A DNA stretch of 64,000 nt, taken from NCBI GenBank assembly GCA_035236585.1, contig CP141127.1:77290972-77354971 (forward strand). Reading direction: 5' to 3'. Position 1 is the first letter of the stretch; every line of letters begins with the position of its first letter. Positions 1-63,540 of the stretch are shown here, piece after piece. Under the pieces are notes generated by a model. It was not told the origin of the DNA, did no database searches, and worked only from the letters and a program-made list of their open reading frames with translations. The position numbers and the translations under genes are program-made. The stretch comes from Warburgia ugandensis. Lineage: Eukaryota; Streptophyta; Magnoliopsida; Canellales; Canellaceae.

Positions 1-215
1 GCATATACAACTAAACTAGAATCATCTGAAACATGCTTTATATGTTTGATCAGCTCTGATGATTTAGCCATTAAATTTTACAAATCAATGGTTGGATGAT
101 CAATTAGAGCTAGAATGCAAATTTTATTTAAATTTTGTAAAACTAATTAGTTAGATGTTCTATCTAGATGCTAAATTAAGGGTATTTAAGTCAAAATTAA
201 ACACTTAATAGATCT
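1..215. repeat. Dispersed repeat fragment, second copy near 27.04-27.26 kb
   Basis: The first ~215 bases align in the same orientation with about 27036-27260. Shared landmarks in order are AGAATCATCTGAAA, a GATGAT block, TTTTACAA, GGATG-TCAATTA-AGCTA, and a closing AAATT-AACACTTAA. Identity looks like roughly 70-75% by eye. No coding is seen. The 27 kb copy lies at the end of an insertion inside CACTA copy A, so this is probably the end of the same repeat family cut by the window edge. Confidence 0.6.
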
Positions 216-2749
<2,534 letters not shown>

Positions 2750-12619: not shown

Positions 12620-12638
12620 TGAGTATTCCTCATACTCA
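12620..12638 (-). promoter_or_regulatory. Hairpin in E1 3' LTR
   Basis: TGAGTAT-N5-ATACTCA, a perfect 7-bp stem, at the place equivalent to the second hairpin of the other LTRs (it follows CTAC in LTR sense). The copy in the 5' LTR is at 18850-18868 and is identical. Confidence 0.55.
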
Positions 12639-18400: not shown

Positions 18401-18456
18401 ACCTCTGGACATGCAGGACTGGCTGTGAAAGGATAAAATTAGGCTCTGATACCAAC
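15402..18456 (-). other. E1 internal region without recognisable coding
   Basis: On the minus strand it runs from the primer site to the polypurine tract (TACCCCC on +, 15407-15413). Leader sequence after the primer site (TCACAGCCAGTCC) resembles that of element E3 (TCACAGCCAATCC). Stops are dense in every frame. The longest frames, 119 codons (+, 16383) and 72 codons (-, 15858), show no domain. Confidence 0.7.
18443..18454 (-). promoter_or_regulatory. E1 primer-binding site (tRNA-iMet)
   Basis: The minus strand reads TGGTATCAGAGC, the standard complement to the 3' end of plant initiator tRNA-Met, just inside the LTR end. It fixes the orientation of the element. Confidence 0.92.
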
Positions 18457-18849
18457 AGTGACAACCCGGGTTTTCACATGCATTTTTAAAATGCAAACTT
18501 AACTCCTAATGCAGGATACATCCCTATTTGAAAACATTTTTATAAAAACAATGCAATGTAGAGGAAAATCTTTTGTTTAATCTCATTTTGAAAGACCCCG
18601 AGTGTCAATTGCTTTCACAACAAACAAAGTAGTTTTGAAAATTACTGTAATCATAAATGTCTTCCCATGTCTATCCAGTCACAGCTCACAGCTCAACTGT
18701 AGTAAGTACAGGTACATGTCCAAAGGAGTAGAGAGTTTACTTACATTCATATTTGTCTCTTCTTCATTTAGTTGATCATAACACCAACATGTCCTAAAGT
18801 TTCTTCTAATCCCTTTTTGGACTAATCTGTCAAAATAATATGTTTGGAG

Positions 18850-18868
18850 TGAGTATTCCTCATACTCA
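18850..18868 (-). promoter_or_regulatory. Hairpin in E1 5' LTR
   Basis: Same 7-bp stem as at 12620-12638, unchanged while flanking bases differ. Confidence 0.55.
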
Positions 18869-19985
18869 GTAGGTTATCTGATACTACTATTTTGAAAACA
18901 TGGTAGGCAACATGCATAATTTGAGGTGCTTTGTCATGTAAAACATCAATGATTCCTTTTTATATATAAACATGCATATTTATGCATAAAACATAAGCTC
19001 ATTGATGCAAATTCAACCACATAATTTTTTATCAAAATCTAGTATTTTAACAATATAAATTTGATTGAAAATTGTAGAGTAGAAATCCATAGATTCATGT
19101 AAGAAGATCTCGACAAACATATCAAACCACGAGTCAAATCTAATAATCATGAAACTCTTAAAATATTCATCTTTCAAGAAGATGTAGTATCATGGTCATG
19201 AGTCCCTTGGTGAATACATCATGCCAATTGGTCACGAGTACTCGTATACGACGATCTCAATGCCATATGCATATCGATAACATCGAAATCATAGGCTCAC
19301 TATGCTCACGATCAGCACACAGCTGAATCGTGTGGCTCTGGTATCTAGGGACCTAGCCATCATAGCCTCCACAGTGACTATGGTTGTCCCTGAAAGGGTG
19401 CTGTGACACCTCTAGTGGTCGTCCCTATTTACCACAGCAGTCAAGGAAGGGACAATGCTTTTTTGGCAGTGATACCATCCACCCTTTTGGTGGTAGAGGC
19501 CGGGAGGCCAACCTCGTACATAACAACCTCTCAGCATAATGCCCACCAGGCTTAATAGCCCAAAAAGCATATATAAATAATTCCAAATCTCGAACAATGA
19601 AATCATGCAATATATGCATTTATTTTCAACCATGCGAACAATGCATATCGTATTCAAAGCCATAATACATGAAGACAATTTTGCATGCTCATATAAGAAC
19701 AACATATCTCAAAAGTAGGCTAAAAATGGTAATAAAGGCAAGTCAGAGTTTAAGATGCATTTAAAAAAACTTAGTAGTATCAGACTACCTACCTCGATGT
19801 CTCATGAATCGCGTTCTTCATTACTCGACCCTGACCCATCTTCGTGAAGCCTTGGATATTAATTGGTAACAAGGATTCCAATATTATTTTCCATCCTTTG
19901 TAGATCATTACTTAGACTTATAGATTAACGACTAGATCTGCCTTTTAGGATCATAGATCCTTGCTTAATACGTTTTCTGGCTAGA

Positions 19986-31262: not shown

Positions 31263-32377
31263 ATGTGTTAGGAATAATTTTATGTTATAATTTGTGCTAA
31301 GAATAACTATATATAAGTTTTTACTTGTGCATAGTTACTCAAGAGTTAATATATTATAGTAGCGTTACTTTCCTAAGACGTAATTGTTTTCTTCATTCTG
31401 TCATATTTATGTACAGCAACTATGCACTTAGATGGTGGTTTTTTCTAAATCAATATATATGTTGTTATATTCTAAATGTATTGTTTTCATTTATGCAGGA
31501 AACATGGAACACGAAGAAAGTGACCATCATGACGAATAGTTTAGCACAAGTACACCTATTAAGAGAAAGGGTAAAGGGCCAACCTAAATAGAGCATATCA
31601 TTAAGAAAAAGTCAAAGGAAATAAAAGAGATGGTACAGTTTGATAGTAAAGGATAGGTTAAAGGTGGTAGCGCACATTCTTACACTAGTTTTGTTTGTTG
31701 CACTATTAGAAGCATGGTGCCAATCTCAGTTACTGATTAGAGACATGTTGTGACACCCTGGGTTTTTCACAACAATAAATAACAATTTTTAAAATGTGTT
31801 AGGATCCCTATTTTGAAATTTCAATTTTTAGGTAGACCAAAAACTCAAATAAAAGCATTTATTTCAAAATCCCAGGAGTCATAAAACCACAAAATTACAA
31901 ATTTAACAATAAAATGATAAACCCACTTCTATTGAAAATCCAACAGTCTCCTTTATATTTAGGACCATTGCACATAACATACGCAATACAATAACTACCT
32001 GATAAATACAATAATATGACATGACACTTAGGAGACTCAAGCTCCATGCCCATACATCCAAATCAAATACAGTACTCAAATAAAAACTCATACTCCAATA
32101 GTGGATAAAAAAAAGAAATCAATATATGACAACATTACCTAGGTTCTGTCTATACATAGCCATCACATCCAACATGAATACTTATCCTTACGTCCAGGTC
32201 ATGAAATAAATCGTACTAAAGTATAGTCCATAAGCCATAACAAAAAGTAAGGTCTGAACAAACATTATAGTTTCTAGAATATCCACTATACATTGTTAGA
32301 AGCTGCCATTGCCTCTACCTGCTCTATCTACATGTCAAACTTACTACTACTCTATGTATTTGAGGTATTACAAACCA

Positions 32378-32405
32378 AGGCAATGCCTCAGCAAGCCATT
32401 GCTTG
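32378..32405 (-). promoter_or_regulatory. Paired hairpins in solo LTR
   Basis: In LTR sense, CAAGC-AATG-GCTTG is followed by a three-base gap and AGGCA-T-TGCCT. The same two-hairpin arrangement appears in the LTRs of E2, E3 and the nested solo LTR, with different stem sequences. Confidence 0.6.
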
Positions 32406-38509: not shown

Positions 38510-39259
38510 TGCATGTGTTTCTTTTTTTTATTTAAGTTTGTGTATGCTTTCTTTATATCATTGAGAAGTGTGTATGGAGAAGTTTGATGTGGAATGTTGA
38601 AAGTGTTGAATGTGTACGAATGTATTTTGTAAAATGATTATAGCCTCTAGAAATGAAGTGTTGAACTTCAAGAACTATAGGAATAAGATATAAATAGAAA
38701 CCAACAAAGGGACACACAATTCATGTAGAAAGTACACAACTTTATAAGACAATTTTTCAAAAATCATCCTATAATATCTATGAAATATAAGATGGTTTTT
38801 TGAAAACCATCCAATCTTACACAACTTTATAGGATGGTTTTTAAAAAACCATCCTTTATTACATAGATTTCCAAGATGGTTATTGAAAAATCATCCTATA
38901 ATATCTATGTTGTGTTTTTATGTAAGATGGTTTTTGAAAAACCATCCTATAATATCCATGGTTTATAAGATGGTTATTGAAAAACCATCCTATATTACTT
39001 AGATATATGAGATGGTTTTAAAAAAAAATTTTCATATATTTTACATATTTATAAGAATATTTTTTTGAAACCATCTTATATAAATTAAGCTTTATAAGAC
39101 TGTTTTTCAAAAATTGTCTTATAAGACTTAATATAAGACGGCTTTAGAACTGTCTTTTATTTTCTTTTCCATTTTATAAGATGGCATAGTATAAGATGGT
39201 TTTTAGCCATCTTTTATAGCTATTTTTAATTGTCTTATAAACTACTCGCCATAATAGTG
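38510..39259. repeat. CACTA B 3' flank and subterminal hairpin array
   Basis: From about 38730, units of ATAAGATGGTTTTTGAAAA and its complement TTTTCAAAAACCATCTTAT alternate for ~500 bp. The array ends at CTCGCCATAATAGTG (39245-39259), whose complement begins CACTATTATGGCGAG, a CACTA-type terminus. The matching left terminus is not in the window. Confidence 0.68.
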
Positions 39260-43058: not shown

Positions 43059-43070
43059 GCTTTGCTACCA
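43059..43070 (-). promoter_or_regulatory. E2 primer-binding site, degenerate
   Basis: The minus strand reads TGGTAGCAAAGC, two substitutions from the tRNA-iMet complement TGGTATCAGAGC, and sits 2 bp inside the LTR end. Confidence 0.75.
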
Positions 43071-43072
43071 AC

Positions 43073-46000
43073 TGTGACATCTCGGTTGTTTATACAAATT
43101 TTTCTCAATTCTTTGAAATTCAACAACGAAAATTCCTTTTATGTAAAGAGAGTTTTCACAAAATCCCAGTCTCATCTCTAAAAAAAGAATACATTTCAAA
43201 GATTCATATATGTGAAAAGGAATATATTTAATATTTTCTAAGATTATATCCAGTCACAATCCAACTATATATACATACATGTTTAGAAAGATCAAATCAA
43301 AGTCATATACTTACATGGTCAACACAATCTCTCACTACTAATGTCCACATCTAAGGTTCCTTCTACCTCGAGGTGTTTTTTCTTCAAGTCAATTTCTTCA
43401 AACCTGAGACATTGTAATTTACAATGTCTTAGCAAGTCTATACTTGGTAGGTATTTGAGCATCTAGTTTGGTGCTATGCATAAAGCCAAATACAAATTGG
43501 ATATCCAAGCCATTTGTAAATTTCTTCTAAGAAACAATACATGTTCATATAGCCTTAACCATGAGATAATATTCATATCACATACATCTCAATTCATTTC
43601 AAGTAATTTTAGATCATATCATCTCAAAACATTATATCGACTCATAATATGGACTAACATTTGACAAATTATCTCAAAATCTAATAACTCCTAATCTACT
43701 CAGAGCATGTTATAAGTATATGTAATGCAATTAGCATAACAAAAATCCTATCAAAGACTTAATCTATCCATGTATAACATCACTACATGAAAAAATCACA
43801 GGATATACATGTAAAGAATAATATACATTATCAATATGCATAAATTAGTGATAAAATAATAAAATAATTGAATTACTTTTCAATTCAATAATAAGCAGAT
43901 TCACGCCACATCTAAATCAGAGCATATCAACTCATCAATGACAAATCCATGCATAATATATATCTGAGCATATTAGCTCACAACAGGCAAATCCATGTCA
44001 AATACATATCTAAGCATATCAGCTCACTATAGCCAAATCTATGTCAAAAACCAAAATTATGAATCAAATCATGATGTAAAAATATCTCTTAATTCACCCC
44101 AGTTCAAACAATGACCATACCATAGCACCTAGAAGTTTGCTAGTACCTCTTGCTCCTACCCTCATTAGCCGCCCTCTTAGGCCACCCTCATGATTACAAG
44201 TATAAATTGTGAATCAAACTTTGATTACATGCAAGAAGACGAAATGCAATGAAATACAAATCATGGTTATGCATTAAAATGAAATATCAAATTCACAAAA
44301 AGCATAAATAAAATGTGAGTGGTAGTAATTCTACACCAATGGTCTTATGGTAAAATGAATCATTTATTCCTACTAAAATTTTATAGGGTCTCTCTATTTT
44401 TTGAACTTACGCATTTTACTCATGCGATATGATTTGCCTAAGAAATCAACACTCACATTTCCAAATAAAACTGAAGACTACATATCTCTATCAATATTAT
44501 TCATATGTCTCAATAATCTTCATACATCACATTAATAATATCCAATGAAATCATCAAAAGGAGAATATATATCATTTATATCATCCATAAAGAGTGATAC
44601 ATTCACAATTTGTAATCATGTCATCCATCAATTCATTAAAACCTATCATACCATGTATTTGACTAGACCAAATATTTAGTCATAATACAAATATAAGGAA
44701 AATTATAGATGTTAGAACAACCTACCTCATGTGGCCATTTCATTAGTTCCCATAAGTGTTTCCTTTAGCTTTGACCATATACTCACTTCTAAGTCAATCT
44801 AATTGCACCTTAAACTATATATTGCATAAAATTTCTATTTTAACACACATAAATAATTAGATTTTTAAATCTAATTATGATCTAATGTTCTAGATCATCA
44901 AACCATTAGATTTCTATAATTCCATCTTTAATACATACTTAAATCTCATGGTGTTAGCCATTTAGGCTACTGATCTATATTCTCAACCATGGATCATCAA
45001 CTAAACATCCATCAAACTTTGGATCATTTGATCCATGCCATTGATTATTGATCAATGGTTTATATACACCTAATCATACTTGGATTTAGTGATTTACATC
45101 TTTTCAATTTTGCGAACCAGCAATCCCAGCCACTAATTAATTGTTTAATCCACAATTTTGAATGGCTAGATCCATGCTTGTTACATTATAGCCATTGGAT
45201 GGTGGTTTAATTTTTTATTTTTAGACTATCCAACACTTGGATTTTGTGTAACTATATGAAACAACATATCTAGTATTTTTGTTTATAGATCTGAATGTGA
45301 TCCAATGGCTAGATCATATTACATTTTCATAAAATATTGTTTTATGTTTCAAATTTGCGTGTCTAGCCAAAATCCAATGATCATATATCATTTGATTATT
45401 TAAGAAATTGTAAATTGGATATTTGATCGCAATTTGATGGTTCACCTTCATGTATCACCCTTATAAACTATAGATTGGAAGATCCTATGCAAATTTGATC
45501 ATGGATGGACGAATTTAATGGATTAGAGGTCCACAATGATGGATAGAAACATCTGGCAGTGGATAGTCACTGGATCTCATCATCCATGATCTATATTTTC
45601 ATCTTGAAAATTCTATGGATAATAAGAAAAATCTTAAATCTATCACGCCTTCTTCATAAAATACCATAAAAGATTCAAATTGGTGAAGTGGGGCAATGAA
45701 TCCTACCTCAATAGTGTGTTGTTATATGTCATCTCTAGATTGATCGGATTAATCATAGATCTTTGGATCTCATCATCCCTTCACTATGCATCAATTTATG
45801 CTAAAACCTTGACCAAGACTCCATCGATCAATGAAATTAACAAAGGGGTTTTGGTCATTATGATGACTAGAATAGATCTATTGTAACAGATCAAGGTTTT
45901 AGTGATCTACTACCTATTTCATGCTAAATACATCACACTTTCACTCCTGTCAACATCCCATTACAGTTACCAATGATGAAGATGGGTGGTATCTGACTAA

Positions 46001-46457: not shown

Positions 46458-46550
46458 AGTGATTAGGTATGTAAGTATTTAAGTTTCATTTATTACTTAA
46501 TAAGAAGCACAGTGACTATTACTACTGGTTATTGGAGACATGTGTTGCCT
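46458..46550 (+). pseudogene. CACTA transposase-like gene, copy C, 5' scrap
   Basis: The segment 46502-46550 reads RSTVTITTGYWRHVLP, matching RSMVPITFEDWRYLP of copy A and the solo-LTR insertion point of copy B. The E2 LTR precedes it and the truncated E3 LTR begins right after it. The gene resumes beyond E3 at 61564 with a later exon, so about two exons are missing between. Confidence 0.65.
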
Positions 46551-47739
46551 TAAATACATGCATTTTATGGTTAGAAATTGATTAAAATGGATGATTTCTA
46601 CTAGAAAACATATTGGACAATTTGGATCGTCCGATCGGTTACTGTGTAAACAATGATTGACAACATTTGATCATCGATCAGATGCTATTAGTGAGATCCC
46701 CATCTTTAAAATAAAATAAAATGATAGGATGGCTCAAATTGTATGGATTTGAAGTGAAACAAATCGAATGATGTAGGGCATCCGATTTGTCACTATTCAA
46801 ATAGAAATCCTTTGATGTTTGATCAATGATGAGATGTCCTAGATGAATTCCTAAACCTTGAATTTGCTAAAATATTATATAAATTATGAAAATTGGATAA
46901 ACATGCAAATTAGAAAGGATGAGTACTGTTCATGGTGAATAAATCTAAATTTGATCATTAAATTTTGATAAAAGTATGAATTTAAAAGTTATGTATCGAA
47001 TTAGATGTCAGAAATTCATGGACTATAGGGATGCTTCGATTATTATTGACCATTGGATCATAATCAAATGTGCAAATGGGAAACTGATGATATAACTTTT
47101 ATGCAATTTGACGAAGTGTGACGATAGGATTGGATTGATGATTGAAAGTAATATTACCATCCAACATCCAGAACTCGATAGTATGTATTTAGACAATTAT
47201 CCAAGAAATAAGACCTTGAAATACCAAGTTAGTTCACTGTGACTTATGGACTAAACCTTTAGATTTTGATGGTCTATCAGGGGGTTATTCCAAGGGAAAA
47301 GGCAAAGCTAAACTGTGGACCATTAACTGGTGAATGGATGATGGATCTAGGACTAACCTGATAATGTATTACTCTATGGAATAGATGATTACTAGAAAGT
47401 TAAATGCCTTATGATGACCTAAGTAGCTCGACTTTGACTAAAACAAAATTTTTATGTACTCATTTATATATTATTCAACATTGACAAGAACTCTATAACA
47501 TCAACAGACAAGATTGACCGATAAGTCAAGATGAGGAAGGAACTTAGCAAAATTGAGAATTTTTCCTATGAGGTAGGTGGTTTTAACATCTATTTGCCCT
47601 TGAGATTTTAAATAATCAAATTTTAGTTTATCATGTTTTCTATTTCGGATTACTTGACTATCATGAAACTTACACTTCATCATGTTGCTTTGTTTGAAGC
47701 TTGTAAAGAATGCAATGTTTGCAAATGAGACACATGAAC

Positions 47740-47742
<3 letters not shown>

Positions 47743-47771
<29 letters not shown>

Positions 47772-47856
47772 TGTATGTATGTATGTATGTATGTATGTAT
47801 GTATGTATGTATGTATGTATGTATGTATGTATGTATGTATGTATGTATGTATGTAT
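47743..47856. repeat. (ATGT)n microsatellite in E3 5' LTR
   Basis: About 28 tetranucleotide units. The tract at 59829-59938 lies at the same place in the 3' LTR, so the repeat was present in the element before insertion. Open frames reading YVCM or HTYI across it are artefacts. Confidence 0.97.
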
Positions 47857-48837
47857 CTTCATAGCTATGATGCACGCTTTTATATGAAAAATGAAAATGA
47901 TGTTGTTCATTACATGTAGTAGAGTGTTTTTGAAAAAATTGATGATATTTGAAATGCATCAATCCCATGTTTTAAGAAGAGATTAAAGAAATGCATGATT
48001 TTGCATGAGATATATGTTATATGATTTAAGATCATTAAGGATTGAGACATATATTAGTTCAGGCAAATGAGCCTGATGGGCACTATGCTGAGAGGTTATA
48101 CGGGGTGGCCTCCCCACCTCTAACCACCAAAAGTACTAGGTATCCATGCCCAAAGTGGCATCATTTTTCTCTATTGATGTGGTAGGAATAACCATTGGAG
48201 GTGGTCACCGCACCATTTCCAGACGTATCTGTAGTGGCCGTGGAGGCTGTGGTGGCTATTCTCTAAATACTAGAGAGGCACAATTCAGTGATCTGGTCAT
48301 GAGCATAGTGTGCCACAAGATTTCTGTTTTGTGATCCACATAGATGGGCTTGATGATGGCGTTTAGATGAGTATTCATACCAACCGACAGATGTGTTCAC
48401 CGGGGTGCATATGTGCACGTGATGATGTTGTTAGTTTGGGATTGCTAACATTTACGGTTTAATCGATCACTACTTTAATACTTTGAGGACTTTATGATGT
48501 TTGATTTATCAAGTTAGATAGTGGATCTTTCACCTAGTTCTCAAGTTATGTTTACATGTGATTTTGGGATATGTTCTATATTGCAAATTTACTTGAGATT
48601 ACTATGATGATTCAACCATTTGGAAAATGCATATTTAAAGTCGTACATGTTTTATATGGATACTATCTAAAATATTTTAACATAAAACTATGGAACTAAT
48701 ATTGAAAAATGACTTTAATCATGTTTCTTATCTTTGATTTCTTTATCATATTCTTTAGAAATTGCATGAAAAAGGATTTGAGATGCTGTTTAGAATTGCA
48801 TAAAAAACTTGGTAAAATAAATGTGTAACTGCCTACA

Positions 48838-48883
48838 CAAGCATAAGCTTGCTGAGACATTGTAAATTGTTTACAATGTCTCA
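48838..48883 (+). promoter_or_regulatory. Paired hairpins in E3 5' LTR
   Basis: First hairpin CAAGC-ATAA-GCTTG (48838-48851), then TGAGACATTGTAAA-TTG-TTTACAATGTCTCA (48853-48883), a perfect 14-bp stem with a 3-nt loop. It lies about 0.6 kb before the LTR end, in the part likely to be R or U5. Possible roles are transcript 3'-end formation or RNA packaging. Confidence 0.75.
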
Positions 48884-49175
48884 GGTTGAAGAAATAGAAC
48901 AGGGAAATGAAGCAGAGGACTGTGTTAGAGAGTTCAAGATGACTAATCAGTAATATCAAATAGGTTTGCATTATGATTAATTTAAATAGTGGACTAAAGT
49001 AACACTTCGATCTAATATGACTTTACTTTATGGATATGTAGACGTGTAACTTGTGGTTGTGTGGCTATGATTGGATTAATCATAGCAGGTATATTTTAAG
49101 TCATCGATGTTTCTTTGGTTTTGATTTAATTTTGATTTTCAAAGCACAAAGTTCTGTATGTAAATGTGATGGGAT

Positions 49176-49190
49176 GGAGACGAAGTCTCC
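49176..49190 (+). promoter_or_regulatory. Short hairpin GGAGAC-GAA-GTCTCC in E3 5' LTR
   Basis: A 6-bp perfect stem. Counterparts are at 61258-61272 (GGA loop, one stem mismatch) and 23360-23374 (GCA loop, stem intact). Confidence 0.45.
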
Positions 49191-49483
49191 CTTATCCTTT
49201 TATTTGTCAAAATTGTGTTTATTAGGTACTTCACAATGACATGCATTACATATCTAATGTCTGAAAAATAGAGAAAACTCTGACAAATTTTCAATAGAAA
49301 TATAGCGCTCATTTCACCGGTAATCCTTTTTTAGAAAAGAAAAATGGCACATGGGGTTTTTAAAAGGGTCTTTTCATGAAAATGTTTTTCACTGTTTGTT
49401 TTCTAAATATTTTTGTAAAATAAGGGCCCGACATTTCAAAAAGAATTGCAAAAATGTATTATAAGAATCCGGGTCATTATAGT

Positions 49484-49495
49484 TGGTATCAGAGC
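49484..49495 (+). promoter_or_regulatory. E3 primer-binding site (tRNA-iMet)
   Basis: TGGTATCAGAGC, an exact complement to the 3' end of initiator tRNA-Met, 2 bp inside the 5' LTR end. Confidence 0.94.
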
Positions 49496-57323: not shown

Positions 57324-57369
57324 CAAGCGCAAGCTTGCTAAGACATTGTAATTGTTTACAATGTCTCAG
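57324..57369 (+). promoter_or_regulatory. Paired hairpins in nested solo LTR
   Basis: CAAGC-GCAA-GCTTG, then AGACATTGTAA-TTGT-TTACAATGTCT (perfect 11-bp stem). The position relative to the LTR end (about 0.56 kb) is like E3. Confidence 0.7.
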
Positions 57370-59825
57370 ATTTGAAGGATTAGAATAGAAGGAAGAACAG
57401 GTCGAAAGTGAGAAATAGTTGTGGAGTTCAGTATTTTAGAATATGGAGACTTTCCAGCATTAAAATGGTGAGCTTTCAAACTTTGGATTTGTATTCTGAT
57501 TCAGTGGAGAATGAGAATGTATATATTTACTTTCAGGTTGTGGATTTAATTGTATTTAAGGGGACATGTTGTGGCATGATTGTGACTGGAGGTTATGGGA
57601 AGTGATAAGTTTTGTGCATTTGTTTTTAAAAAAAATTAATTGCATTGTTTTATTAGGTGTCAGCACACATGCGTCAAATAAGCATATGTTTGAAAAATAG
57701 AGGAAACTTTGCCAAATTTTTGTTAGAAATGAGACACTCATTTCACTAAAAACTCCTTATATTTTGTGTGAAAATGACACTCGGGATTTTCAAAAAAACT
57801 TAGTAAAAAAAGAAAAAGAAAAAGAAAATTTTCTTTATTTTGATTGCAAAATGAAGTTTAAACAAGGGATATCCCAAATTTCAAAAATAGTTTTCAAAAA
57901 GGTATTTTTGAAACCCGGGGTGTCACATTCCCAAAACCAACAGAAAAGAAAAGAGAAAAAAAACAACAGAAGAACCATGCCTAGGAGGAGAAACCCGACG
58001 TCGGTGGAGGAGGAGAAGAGGAAGAAAAGGGAGGAGGAAAAGAGAGGAGGAAGAAGGAGAAGAGAAGAAGAGAGGAGGAAGAAGCTCCACGCAAAATGAA
58101 AACCCTAGTTTACGCCAAAGAGGGGGAGAAGAGATTTATAGTCACCGGAGAAGCAAACTTCGTCGGCGACAATGGTGGCTCTGATTGGAGATCCAATCGT
58201 ACAATCAAGTCTTCAGGAGCTGAGGAGCAAAACCCCTCTAGTTCCACTGCCATCAGGGGAGAAATGATGTTGGAACTGAAGGGGACAGTAGCGAGCATGG
58301 ATTGTTGCCCAAAAAACCATCCAATGACGCCTTCTCCGACCATGATCAGAAGTTGTGGGCACCCATAGACGTTAGTTTTCTAACAACTTCTCTGTTTCCA
58401 TGTTCGATTTGATTGTAGAATAGGAAAAACTAGGTTTTTTCAGTTAGAGCTAATCTGATTTGCACCAAAACAAAATTAGAATTGTTGATCTTGTTTGTTA
58501 TTAACAAAAAAAGAGGGTTAGGAGCATTGATCAACCAGTTTGAGGCTCTGATCATCTGATTGTAGCTCGGACAAGGGTGATCCGATCATTGCAGCCTGAT
58601 CCACACTGATCCAATCATTCAAATTGTAAATTAAGCTTAAAAGTAGTTAAATGCAAGCATTTTGTGCTTAGGAATTGACTAAATTGGACAATCTATGCAA
58701 GAAAATAGATTAGACAATCTGGTTTGTTCGATTTGTTACTGTGTAGACAGTGACTGACAACATCTAATCATCGATCATATGCTAGCAGTGAGATCCCCAT
58801 CTTAAAAAAAAAAATGATAGGATGACCAAATTGTATGGATTTGAAGTGAAACAAATCGGATGATCTAGGCCGTTTGATCTGTCACTATTCAAATAGAAAC
58901 CCTCTGATTTTTTATCAATGACGAGATGTCATAGATGAATTCCTAAACCTTGAATTTGCTTAAATATGATATGAATTGTAGAAATTGGATAAACATGAAA
59001 ATTAGAAAGGATGAGAAATGTTCGTGGTGAATAAATCTAAATTTTGATAAAAGTATGAATTTAAAAGTTATATATCAAATTAGATGTCAAAAATGAAAAT
59101 TCATGGACTCTAGGGATACTTTGACGATTATTGACCATCCGATCATAATCAAATGTGCAAATGGGAAATTGATGATATTACTTTTATGCAATTTGACGAA
59201 CTGTGGCGATTGGATTGGATTGATAATTGAAACTAATATTACCATCCAACATCCAAAACATGAAAGTACGTATTTAGACAATTATCCAGGAAATAAGACC
59301 TTGAAATACCAAGTTAGAACACTGTGACTTATGGACTAAACCTTTAGATTTAGATGGTTTGTCAAGGGGGTTATTCCAAGGTAAAAGGCAAAGGTAAACC
59401 GTGGATCATTAATTGGTGAATGGATGATGGATATAAGACTGATCTGATAATGTATTACTCTATGGAATAAATGATCAGTGAAAAGTTAAACGACTTATGA
59501 TGACCTAAGCCATTAGACTTTCATTAAAACAAAATTTTTACGTATTCATTTATATATGATTCAACATTGACAAGAACTCTGTAACATCAATAGAGAAGAT
59601 TGACCAATAAGTCAAGATGAGGAAGGAACTTAGAAAAATTGAGAATTTTGTCTAAGAGGTAGGTGGTTTTAACATCTATTTGCCCTTGAGATTTTAAATA
59701 ATCAAATTTTAGTTTATCATGTTTTCTATTTCAGATTACTTGACTATCATAAAACTTACACTTCATCATGTTAATTTGTTTTAAGCTTGTAAAGAATGCA
59801 ACATTTGCAAATGACACATGTGAAC

Positions 59826-59828
<3 letters not shown>

Positions 59829-59857
<29 letters not shown>

Positions 59858-59956
59858 TGTATGTATGTATGTATGTATGTATGTATGTATGTATGTATGT
59901 ATGTATGTATGTATGTATGTATGTATGTATGTATGTATCTATCTATCCATCTATCT
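59829..59956. repeat. (ATGT)n(ATCT)n microsatellite in E3 3' LTR
   Basis: About 27 ATGT units to 59938, then short ATCT/ATCC units. It is the counterpart of 47743-47856. Confidence 0.96.
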
Positions 59957-60928
59957 TCATAACCATGATGCATGCTTTTAGATGAAAAACAAAAATGATG
60001 TTGTTCATTACATGTAGCAGAGTGTTTTTGAAAAAAATGATGATATTTGAAATGCATCAATCCCATGTTTTAAGATGAGATTAAAGAAATGCACTAGTTT
60101 GCATGAGATATATGTTATATGATTTAAGATCATTTGGGATTGAGATATATCTTAGTTCAAGCTAATGAGCCTGGTGGGCACTATGCTGAGAGGTTATATG
60201 GGGTGGCCTCTAACCATCAAAGGTGGTAGGTATCCATGCCCAAAGTGGCATCATTTTTCTCAACTGCTATGGTAGGAACAACCATTGGCAGTGGTCACGA
60301 CACCGTTTCAAGAAGTATCCGTAGTCGCCGTGGAGGTTGCGGTGGCTATTCTTTAAATACCTGAGAGGCATGATTCTATGATCTAGTCATGAGCATAGTG
60401 TGCCATAGGATTTCTATTTTGTGACCCATGTAGATGGGCTTGATGATGGTCTTTAGATGAGTAGTTATGACCAACTAGCTGATGTGTTTGCTGGGGTGCA
60501 TATGTGCAAGTGATGATGTTGTCAGTTTGGGATTGCCAACATTCACGGTTTAATCGATCACTACTTTAATACATTGAGGACCTTATGATGTTTGATTTAT
60601 CAAGTTAGATAGTGGATCTTTCACATAGTTCTCAAGTTATGTTTACATGTGATTTTGGGATATGTTCTATATTACAAATTTACTTAAGATTACTATGATG
60701 ATTCAACCATTTGAAAAATGCATGTTTAAAGTTATACATGTTTTATATGGATACTATCTGCAATGTTTTAACATGAAACTGTGGAATTGATATTGAAAAA
60801 TGACTTTAATCATGTTTCTTATCTTTGATTTGTTTATTATATTCTTTAGAAATTGCATCAAAAAGGATTTGAGATGCTGTTTAGAATTGCATGAAAAACT
60901 TGATAAAATAGATGTGAAACTGCTTACA

Positions 60929-60974
60929 CAAGTGTAAGCTTGCTAAGATATTGTAAATTGTTTACAATATCTGA
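60929..60974 (+). promoter_or_regulatory. Paired hairpins in E3 3' LTR
   Basis: CAAGT-GTAA-GCTTG (one G:T pair), then AGATATTGTAAA-TTG-TTTACAATATCT (perfect 12-bp stem). Relative to the 5' LTR, both partners of one pair have changed (C:G to T:A). Confidence 0.72.
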
Positions 60975-61563
60975 GGTTGAAGAAATAGAATTGGGAAAAT
61001 GAAGCAGAGGACTATGTTAGAGAGTTCAAGATGGCTAATCAGGTATATCAAATAGGTTTGTATTATGATTAATTTAAATAGTAGACTGAAGTAACACTTC
61101 GATCTAATATGACTTTATGGATATGTAGACATGTAACTTGAGGTCGTGGTTGTGTGGCTGTGATTGGATTGATCCTGGCAGGTATATTTATAGTCTGCAA
61201 TGTTTCTTTTATTTTGATTTTCAAAATACAAAGTTCTATATGTAAATGTGATGGGATGGAGACGGAGTCTACCTTATCCTTTTATTTATCAAAATTGTGT
61301 TTATTAGGTACTTTGCAATGCAATGCGTTAAATGTCTAATGTCCTAAAAAACAAGGAAACTCTACTGGATTTTTGACAGAAATGTAGCACTCATTTCACA
61401 GATAATCTTTTTTTAGAAAAGAAAAATGGCACTTGGGGTTTTTAAAAAGGTCTTTTCATGAAAATATTTTTCGCTGTTTGTTTTTTAAATATTTTTGTAA
61501 AAGAAGGACCCGACTTTTCAAAAAGAATTACAAAAATGTATTATAAAAACTTGGGTCATTACA

Positions 61564-63540
61564 GAATCCCACTAACTGTGCCCTGAATCCTATAAAAAAA
61601 TGGCACATCTAGAGAAGTAAAACCAAAACCAACAAAAACAAAGTTACTAAACAAGCTACTTATCCAACAGATGTGGTTGCATCTACCCTTGTTATAATTT
61701 TAGAATACTTATAAAATAATTTATAAAATTGATCATGTTTTTATAAAATGTTGAGGAACAGGTGACCCACACATCTGCATCTATAAGGACTCTAAGCAGT
61801 AGTGTTGTAAAGGATGATATCCTATGGAAGGCTTTGAACAATAAGGGGCCAAGGGCGTAGTATTACTCATTCCAAATACTTTGATCTAAAGAATCAAGAA
61901 TCACCTAAATTTGATGAGAAGGAGATGTATGAAAAGATAAAAGTTGAAGGGACAAAGAATCTCAAAAAGGAAATGTATGAGAAGTTAAAGTGACAATTAA
62001 TGGGATAGTTCCATAAAATGAAAGGTCGTAGTCAAGAGTCTAATTTCTCCTATTGAAGAAGATACGAAGAGCTACACGTGCCCTTAAGACAAAAAGATTC
62101 ATCCAAGGAGGTATATAAATACACATGTTTACATACCACATCTTCAATAGTATTTTTTAGAAACCTTAATATAATTCTTTATTATCTGCATCTAATGTTA
62201 ATCAGAAGGAGTAGCATATGTCATCAAGGCAGATCTCTTCCTCACTAACAGCTGTCATCCTAGTGATCATTCTAGTACTAGTAGTTACATTTAAATTCAT
62301 GATAAAATCAAGTAACTCTTCAATGAAATTTTTTATATTAATTAATAATCTATGTGACTTTACAACAACAGTCTAGTGATTGTCTAGAAGTTTCATTCTA
62401 CATACCTCTTTTTTTAAGACCCTTTACAACTTTATTAATGAAGATAAGGTAATTAACCTTAGATGGATAGACCCTAGAGTACTTTAGTGATATAGGAGTT
62501 AATACCATTCATGATAGAGGACCTCGCAAAAGTTTATAAATGTGATGAACTTAAATATGTGCACATTATCTCTTATATCGAGCATGCAAATATCTGCTTC
62601 AATAAAAAAAAAAACCCTTAACATTAATGATAAGCAATAATAATCATTTATTTTTTGTAGATATCTATATAATATAATGCAAAGATCAGGGATCAAGGAC
62701 CTTTACAAATTTTAACCCTTCTATTATTTCTAGACTGATAGAGCAATGGACCAAGGAGAGGCGAGTTGATAAAATTTTGCCATGATTCTTTCATATCTCA
62801 AAAGGGGAGGCCTTAATGATTTCATATAAGAACATGTAAGTTTTAACTAATTTTCCTTCCTAATTATATTCTGCACATATATTTAATTTTAATGATTGTA
62901 AACTTTATTATGATTCATATAATTTTGTATATAGGTCTCATTAGATGCTTCTAGTTCTCAATTTGTATAGTAGGAACACATATTCATGTTAAGCACACAT
63001 TCATGCCCCACTAATTAAAATCATAGATAGGAAAATTTTTAATATTTTTATGTGTTATCATAGGTTAATAACTGATAGCTAATGCAATTTCCATTTTAAA
63101 TTCAAAGTACAAGGAATAAATGGCCTAAATTAATTGAGACTACAAACCCACCAAAATTCACTTAAAAGAAGGTCAAGGTAAGAAAAACTAATTAACAACT
63201 CTATATAAATAGAAGTTACAAATAGACATGATATTTATCTATCATTTCTATTTCCTTTGTTTCATGGTGCCTTAAACAACAATACAATTAAGAGTATATA
63301 TACTATATTCTAATATACATGAGAACCCTTATATGCTATGGTGTCAAGCTTCAATAATTAAGAAATGTTAGATACTTTACTAATCATCATCATACATTTT
63401 TCCACAAGCTTTGGGGTTAACTACAAGAAATAAAATTTAAGTAGTGCATATATAAGTAGTAAACTAAATTAAATATATTGTCTCACAGATAGTGATGCTA
63501 CTTGATTGAGGAGGCAAGGGTTGCTCCCAAATAGATCTCA
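61564..63540 (+). pseudogene. CACTA transposase-like / Ulp1-type gene, copy C, 3' part
   Basis: The gene of copies A and B resumes directly after E3. About 61564-61680 matches the EPIDCALLRKMVH exon (reads TNCAL, IKKWH). 61755-62105 matches the SATTGTLSS exon (SASIRTLSSSVVKDDILW, NLKKEMYEKLK). 62380-62580 matches the LYRLINED exon. 62655-62840 has GIKDLYKF and the start of the peptidase. 62936-63010 reads SH-stop-MLLVLNLYS. 63268-63350 reads LKQQYN, where the catalytic-Cys position (TGT in copy A) is TAT, then YMRTLICY. Stops and frameshifts are numerous. The upstream exons are lost except for the scrap at 46458-46550. Confidence 0.72.

Follow-up and report, generated by a model that had tools for sequence, protein, structure and literature searches.

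In a 64-kb stretch of the Warburgia ugandensis genome (contig CP141127.1; hereafter the window), the long terminal repeats (LTRs) of several retrotransposons carry a short module in which one or two stem-loops follow a CYTAC lead. Our leading explanation, which we hold at slightly short of an even chance, is that the module is a selected stem-loop shared by a large group of Ty3-type LTR retrotransposons in plants, located at or just past the U3/R boundary and most likely acting as a folded RNA in R. A selected structure is supported because paired cells changed on both sides exceeded those in all 500 shuffles, because conservation, in the segments compared, was confined to the module, and because 76 of 90 LTR ends collected without regard to the hairpin contained it.

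Architecture of the module in the window

The first-pass annotation of this DNA described pairs of adjacent hairpins in five LTRs: both LTRs of element E3, one LTR of element E2, a nested solo LTR, and a further solo LTR. All five pairs were present, and alignment and profile search joined them into a single homologous island of 43–47 nt, with one copy per LTR. The island begins with CYTAC, followed by hairpin 1 (CAAGY and RCTTG around a loop of 3 or 4 bases) and hairpin 2 (CTGAGRYATTG...CAATRYCTCAG). Hairpin 2, previously placed a few bases after the first stem, begins at the very next base, and the two helices abut with zero unpaired bases between them. Counted with 11 pairs fixed, its loop measures 7–18 nt, and several families extend the pairing into the loop.

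The second stem, initially described as perfect and 5 to 14 bp long, is perfect solely in the E3 5' LTR, where it reaches 15 bp. The E3 3', nested and E2 copies each have one mismatch close to the base of the stem, and in the solo LTR 8 of 11 positions are Watson-Crick pairs, one is G·U and two are C·A mismatches. Nor do the second stems differ between families as had been proposed: the solo LTR and E3 share one homologous stem with a compensated A-U to G-C change, and the "AGGCA" stem singled out earlier is not the homologous stem 2. The set of five LTRs had also overlooked element E1, both LTRs of which carry a single hairpin, related to hairpin 2, at the equivalent relative place. The E1 hairpin sequence recurs identically at two further loci in the genome (L020 and L049).

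When folded in isolation as RNA, the five copies gave energies of -13.8 to -24.6 kcal/mol, with z-scores between -1.9 and -7.3. Tandem hairpins of similar overall shape occurred seven times on the plus strand of the window, two of these being the module, and dinucleotide-shuffled windows (n=20) also produced 0–5 each (mean 1.35); shape alone is therefore weak evidence. The evidential strength of the module is its recurrence, position and covariation rather than its shape. A scan of the window against Rfam at the gathering score returned no matches.

Conservation and covariation across the genome

The genome assembly comprises 1.12 Gb in 14 contigs. A hairpin-blind pattern joining the LTR end to the primer binding site (PBS), CANTTGGTATCAGAGCC, occurred 3061 times in it and not once when read backwards. 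The sample consisted of the first 90 of 100 places listed from these 3061, all on one contig (C1). By motif search, the module was present at 71 of the 90 LTR ends (17 with two hairpins, 54 with one), two further matches (L048 and L093) having been judged false and excluded. BLAST added five mutated one-hairpin copies, giving 17 two-hairpin loci, in one of which (L065) hairpin 1 is broken, and 59 with hairpin 2 alone (TGAG...CTCA). Among loci with a G between the terminal CA and the PBS, 71 of 74 carried the module (66 by motif, 5 by BLAST). Its start lies about 290–660 nt upstream of the LTR end.

The one-hairpin families mostly read TCCTAC-TGAGTAT...ATACTCA-CCC, the form found in both E1 LTRs. 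Further families were retrieved as CTYAC-TGAG...CTCA-CYCC, a pattern that itself fixes four pairs; it matched the genome 34 times, compared with twice when reversed, and the matches had many different loops. Since the one-hairpin and CTYAC families both carry a CYTAC-type lead plus this hairpin, the shared core is CYTAC followed by the TGAG...CTCA hairpin (hairpin 2), and hairpin 1 is confined to one set of families. Outside this genome, the two-hairpin pattern gave no match in the viral_contigs collection, and a slightly different form of it gave none in genome_contigs. Of the 39 viral_contigs stretches that matched the one-hairpin pattern, none showed a PBS-like site within the up to 900 nt inspected, and they were set aside as chance matches.

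Grouping by flank similarity with a threshold of 75% yielded 14 families. For 14 two-hairpin copies from 12 flank families, pairwise identity within the module was 0.743 against 0.529 after shuffling, and the four flanking 50-nt segments reached 0.561–0.571 against 0.542–0.556. Within the segments compared, conservation is limited to the module. The earlier remark that the surrounding LTR is much less conserved was borne out, and the module proved better conserved than its flanks in these 14 copies, the reverse of the outcome named beforehand as refuting.

Covariation was examined over 22 two-hairpin copies and 17 pairs (374 cells), with 500 shuffles as control. Pairing was retained in 94.1% of cells, compared with 29–39% in slid controls. 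Both sides had changed in 18 cells, against 7.0±1.9 in the shuffles, and the covariation score was 0.212 against 0.151±0.011; no shuffle reached either value. The core of hairpin 2 occurs in three states, GACATTG/CAATGTC, GATATTG/CAATATC and GGCATTG/CAATGCC. These core states are compensated between families. The C-G to T-A change between the two LTRs of E3 is another matter: the LTRs of one element are identical at insertion, so this double change arose after insertion and is not evidence of selection. It is of the same kind as the decay seen within families.

Position in the LTR and competing explanations

Flanking features were measured from the first base after TAC. In 15 representatives of 12 flank families, the motif GCATG/CATGC, which we take to be the RY core of plant promoters, was counted in 100-nt bins. 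Of the nine bins between -900 and 0, eight contained it at 4.0–8.3 per kb and one, -500..-400, at 0.7 per kb. Downstream, every bin up to +300 gave 0.7 per kb (shuffles 0.7–1.4), and the density rose to 6.1 per kb at +300..400, close to the LTR end. The level at -100..0, which matches that far upstream, is not built in by the choice of motif. In the 14 families, the purine fraction was 0.43 at -30..0, 0.69 at +60..90, 0.61 at +90..120 and 0.45–0.54 elsewhere, and T[AT]TGTA peaked at +150..210 (0.59 of families). A later set was drawn from the 34 CTYAC-TGAG...CTCA-CYCC places as ten loci, one per hairpin type, picked by eye; at least three (L190, L193 and L194) do not look by eye like LTRs of these elements, so that the set is weaker evidence both for and against. 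Eight of its ten loci had no GCATG/CATGC from 0 to +210, and seven had a purine fraction of at least 0.60 at +60..90. TGTAA at +161..177 was found in five, a looser variant chosen after the fact.

Taken together, the RY-rich stretch ending at the module, the purine stretch and, less firmly, the UGUA elements lend indirect support to an R/U5 position. The first-pass annotation had proposed a selected RNA structure in R/U5; its selection component is supported, the placement is suggested by these flanking signals, and the choice of RNA over DNA turns on loop length. The roles it named, 3'-end formation, dimerisation and packaging, stay candidates alongside strand transfer. If the promoter-like U3 ends where the module begins, the module would make up the 5' part of R; since R stands at both ends of the genomic RNA, it would occur once in the 5' leader and a second time close to the 3' end. 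Once folded, it could act as R-region hairpins do in retroviruses, giving shape to the leader and to the R sequence that is transferred, and it may help to separate read-through of the 5' LTR from polyadenylation of the 3' LTR at the UGUA elements downstream. We infer the transcription of the module, its U3/R placement, its action at the RNA level and every function from the observed sequences, their conservation and covariation, and the boundaries in position and composition.

Other features were noted in the same LTR regions. RY-type motifs (TTATGCAT and TGCATGAT) were over-represented in the U3-like part, from -900 to 0, of the 15 representatives, a hint of control by what we presume to be B3 factors of the embryo or seed. 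Some one-hairpin LTRs (L042, L011 and L034, compared with L073) contain an extra segment between the hairpin and the purine-rich part; in L042 a CACCCAA or CACCCAA-like repeat lies at both of its ends, as though recombination had joined two downstream types. A further hairpin, GGAGAC-N3-GTCTCC, lies about 300–400 nt past the module in several two-hairpin families (window 49176-49190, plus strand; also L023, and less perfectly L022 and L038), and a related GGAG...CTCC occurs in the solo LTR near 32045 (minus strand). A GC-richer block of about 340 nt (window 48062-48401, plus, and 19209-19560, minus) is 70% alike between E3 and E1; located about 440–780 nt upstream of the E3 module, it represents another conserved part of the LTR.

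Several observations weigh against a folded RNA at the start of R. Its placement there is derived from sequence. GCATG/CATGC was picked from a k-mer list covering -900..-20 only, so that the downstream contrast is partly built in, and the T[AT]TGTA peak, stated in advance for +150..210, was found in only two of the ten later loci. By eye, a conserved TATA box seemed to precede the hairpin, but an enrichment test gave this no support: TATA[AT]A 20–38 nt upstream occurred at 0.09 against 0.06 in shuffles, 58 of 200 of which were as high, and a transcript start exactly at the hairpin is consequently unsupported. Most copies look dead and decayed, so single mismatches mean little. In the covariation test, neither the pairs altered on both sides (6 against 4.5±1.1; 87 of 500 shuffles as high) nor the further pair types (13 against 13.5; 406 of 500) were raised in number, which confines the signal to a few pairs. 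The families also share ancestry, making covariation events fewer than cells, and the test leaves relatedness partly uncontrolled. Finally, the non-Watson-Crick cells comprised 16 G·U, 14 A·C and 6 others, with G·U not clearly preferred; because G·U and A·C are about equal, selection at the RNA level is not separated from selection on a DNA palindrome.

The near-equality of these two mismatches is also what would be expected of an element acting as DNA at the promoter edge, either a protein-bound inverted repeat or a cruciform, in which compensation arises since both half-sites must match. We regard this explanation as unlikely, while giving it real weight: the module stands directly at the end of the GCATG/CATGC-rich stretch, and palindromic cis-elements are a known case in Sirevirus LTRs (Bousios 2010, PMC2829016). 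The geometry of the module argues instead for a hairpin over a dimeric protein site of fixed spacing, because the loop varies in length over its full 7–18 nt, the helices abut without a linker and the arm sequence itself changes between families; with the one-hairpin set included, arm spacing ranges from 3 to 18 nt.

A splice-related role, in which the hairpin would mask or present a 3' splice site followed by a purine-rich exon and a donor, appears rather improbable. The commonest one-hairpin form does have CTTAACATTTTTCAG shortly past the stem, CAG occurs at or after the module end in many copies, the purine-rich stretch contains GAAGA/AGGAA, and 7 of the 14 families had a donor-like site of at least 7 bits at +100..190, where about 0.04 was expected. 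This span was first chosen after seeing the data, however, and when the donor was defined beforehand none of the ten later loci had one, so a universal donor after the module is not supported. An intron running from a start further upstream in the LTR to this site would, moreover, presumably vanish at the next reverse transcription.

To a 3'-end signal, with the hairpin as part of a poly(A) signal and cleavage just after it (UUUUUCA), we give only a slim chance. The commonest one-hairpin form is followed by a U-rich stretch ending in CA, but AATAAA is nearly absent (0.00–0.04 of families from -60 to +150) and the UGUA elements lie about 150–210 nt further on. Poly(A) runs just past the one-hairpin form, considered as marks of retrocopy ends, were discarded as a candidate, a run of 12 within 30 nt of the U-rich stretch having no match in the genome.

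Decay within families bears on whether the module is selected at all. Among 30 E3-like loci (the window copy included), 29 of which covered the module region, the stems decay freely, and at least two (L132 and L140) of 20 E2-like loci lack a recognisable module; these 20 were taken from 40 family matches, and matches of the solo and nested families were left out. An unselected origin, whether as a leftover of shared ancestry in a recombining LTR segment or as a small-RNA or silencing seed useless to the element, would accommodate this decay of copies, stems included, but has a similarly small likelihood given random identity within 55 nt on either side of a module at 74% and the compensated core states between families.

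Carrier elements and comparison with known systems

By self-comparison, E3, E2 and E1 have paired LTRs, and in each a PBS adjoins the 5' LTR (Table 1); in the second E2 LTR, the alignable part stops before the module. We take the E3 PBS, TTGGTATCAGAGC, to be of the initiator-tRNA-Met type. Downstream of the PBS, L036 and L022 encode Retrotrans_gag and Ty3_capsid domains, whereas L021 encodes RVP_2 and a zinc knuckle; all three proteins scanned gave such domains. The longest open frames between the LTRs of E3 and E1 measure 132 and 152 aa, and six pieces of the window gave one weak RVP_2 match, in E3 (E 0.15, under the curated cut-off). On the basis of paired LTRs, PBS and gag/protease, the module carriers can be classed as Ty3-type (Metaviridae) LTR retrotransposons; from the LTR ends and PBS we would guess at the Tekay/Del chromovirus lineage. 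Adjoining the truncated end of the second E2 LTR, positions 38742-39181 contain inverted and direct copies of a ATAGGATGGTTTTTCA-like unit, an array that looks like a separate palindromic repeat.

Table 1. Module copies and associated features in the window.
Feature	Position	Strand	Remarks
E3 5' LTR module	48838..48884	+	hairpin 1 48838-48851; hairpin 2 48852-48884, 15 bp perfect; fold -24.6 kcal/mol, z -7.3
CCTAC of E3 5' LTR module	48832-48836	+	
E3 3' LTR module	60929..60975	+	fold z -3.6
Nested solo LTR module	57324..57369	+	fold z -5.0
E2 module	43404..43446	-	hairpin 1 variant CAAGT/ACTTG; fold z -4.4
Solo LTR module	32360..32405	-	hairpin 2 with compensated G-C pair, two C·A, one G·U; fold z -1.9
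E1 LTR single hairpin	18850..18868	-	TGAGTAT-GAGGA-ATACTCA after CCTAC; hairpin 2 homologue
E1 other LTR, identical single hairpin	12620..12638	-	
E3 5' LTR (approximate; alignable repeat part)	46550..49482	+	self-comparison, 88% to 58647-61564
E3 3' LTR (approximate)	58647..61564	+	self-comparison
E3 PBS TTGGTATCAGAGC	49483..49495	+	
E2 PBS TTGGTAGCAAAGC	43059..43071	-	
E1 PBS	18443..18455	-	
E1 element span	12.2-20.5 kb		
E2 donor-like GTAAGT	43309..43314	-	132 nt past hairpin 1 start; not general among families
E1 donor-like GTAAGT	18739..18744	-	124 nt past hairpin start

Much of the DNA in many plant genomes consists of Ty3-type LTRs, which are long, fast-evolving and hard to compare, and whose transcript ends are rarely known. 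A structural landmark common to otherwise unalignable LTRs would allow R to be located and solo LTRs to be found, and the module points to a testable RNA step in the replication cycle.

In retroviruses, hairpins of the R region influence how the leader folds, how strands are transferred and which poly(A) site is used. The TAR and poly(A) hairpins of HIV-1 offer a close likeness in form, being one or two abutting stem-loops, which here would stand at the start of R and at both RNA ends; the present stem-loop is backed by compensatory change, in the 22 two-hairpin copies with relatedness partly corrected. The module differs in belonging to a plant Ty3-type element, in having an optional hairpin 1 and in having no known trans-activator. 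A broader claim, which we consider doubtful, is that the TGAG...CTCA hairpin with its optional abutting partner is a general, previously undescribed R-region element, marking where U3 gives way to R and required for replication. If true, it would be a plant counterpart of the retroviral R hairpins and would make U3, R and U5 readable from sequence.

No description of the module was found in the literature searched, which comprised open-licence papers. Searches of that literature for its sequence strings gave no relevant paper, one string occurring merely in a simple sequence repeat primer (PMC3561071), and a term search of the accessible part of a study on plant LTR classification (PMC11656987) gave no hairpin, palindrome or secondary structure. 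As with the module, the palindromic motifs of Sirevirus LTRs are conserved across diverged plant LTR families, but the accessible part of PMC2829016 describes many copies per LTR with a CGG-CCG core, upstream of TATA. The module is instead a single unit per LTR in the five window copies, has other sequences (TGAG-CTCA and CAAGY-RCTTG), belongs to Ty3-type elements and lies where a promoter-like stretch ends on its downstream side; given also the lack of a conserved TATA at -38..-20, its identification with the Sirevirus motif was rejected. In the foamy virus LTR, a splice donor and RNA structure control polyadenylation, according to the portion of PMC3694450 available. Some families here likewise combine a structure, a donor-like site and UGUA elements within one LTR segment, with the difference that the donor is not general. 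A study using hidden Markov models of LTRs (Benachenhou 2013, PMC3601003) names stem-loops, in its accessible text, as one reason why some conservation remains in long R regions; plant Ty3-type LTRs were beyond modelling there because of length variation. Relative to those models, as far as that text describes them, the module is a conserved piece of the very plant Ty3-type LTRs left unmodelled there.
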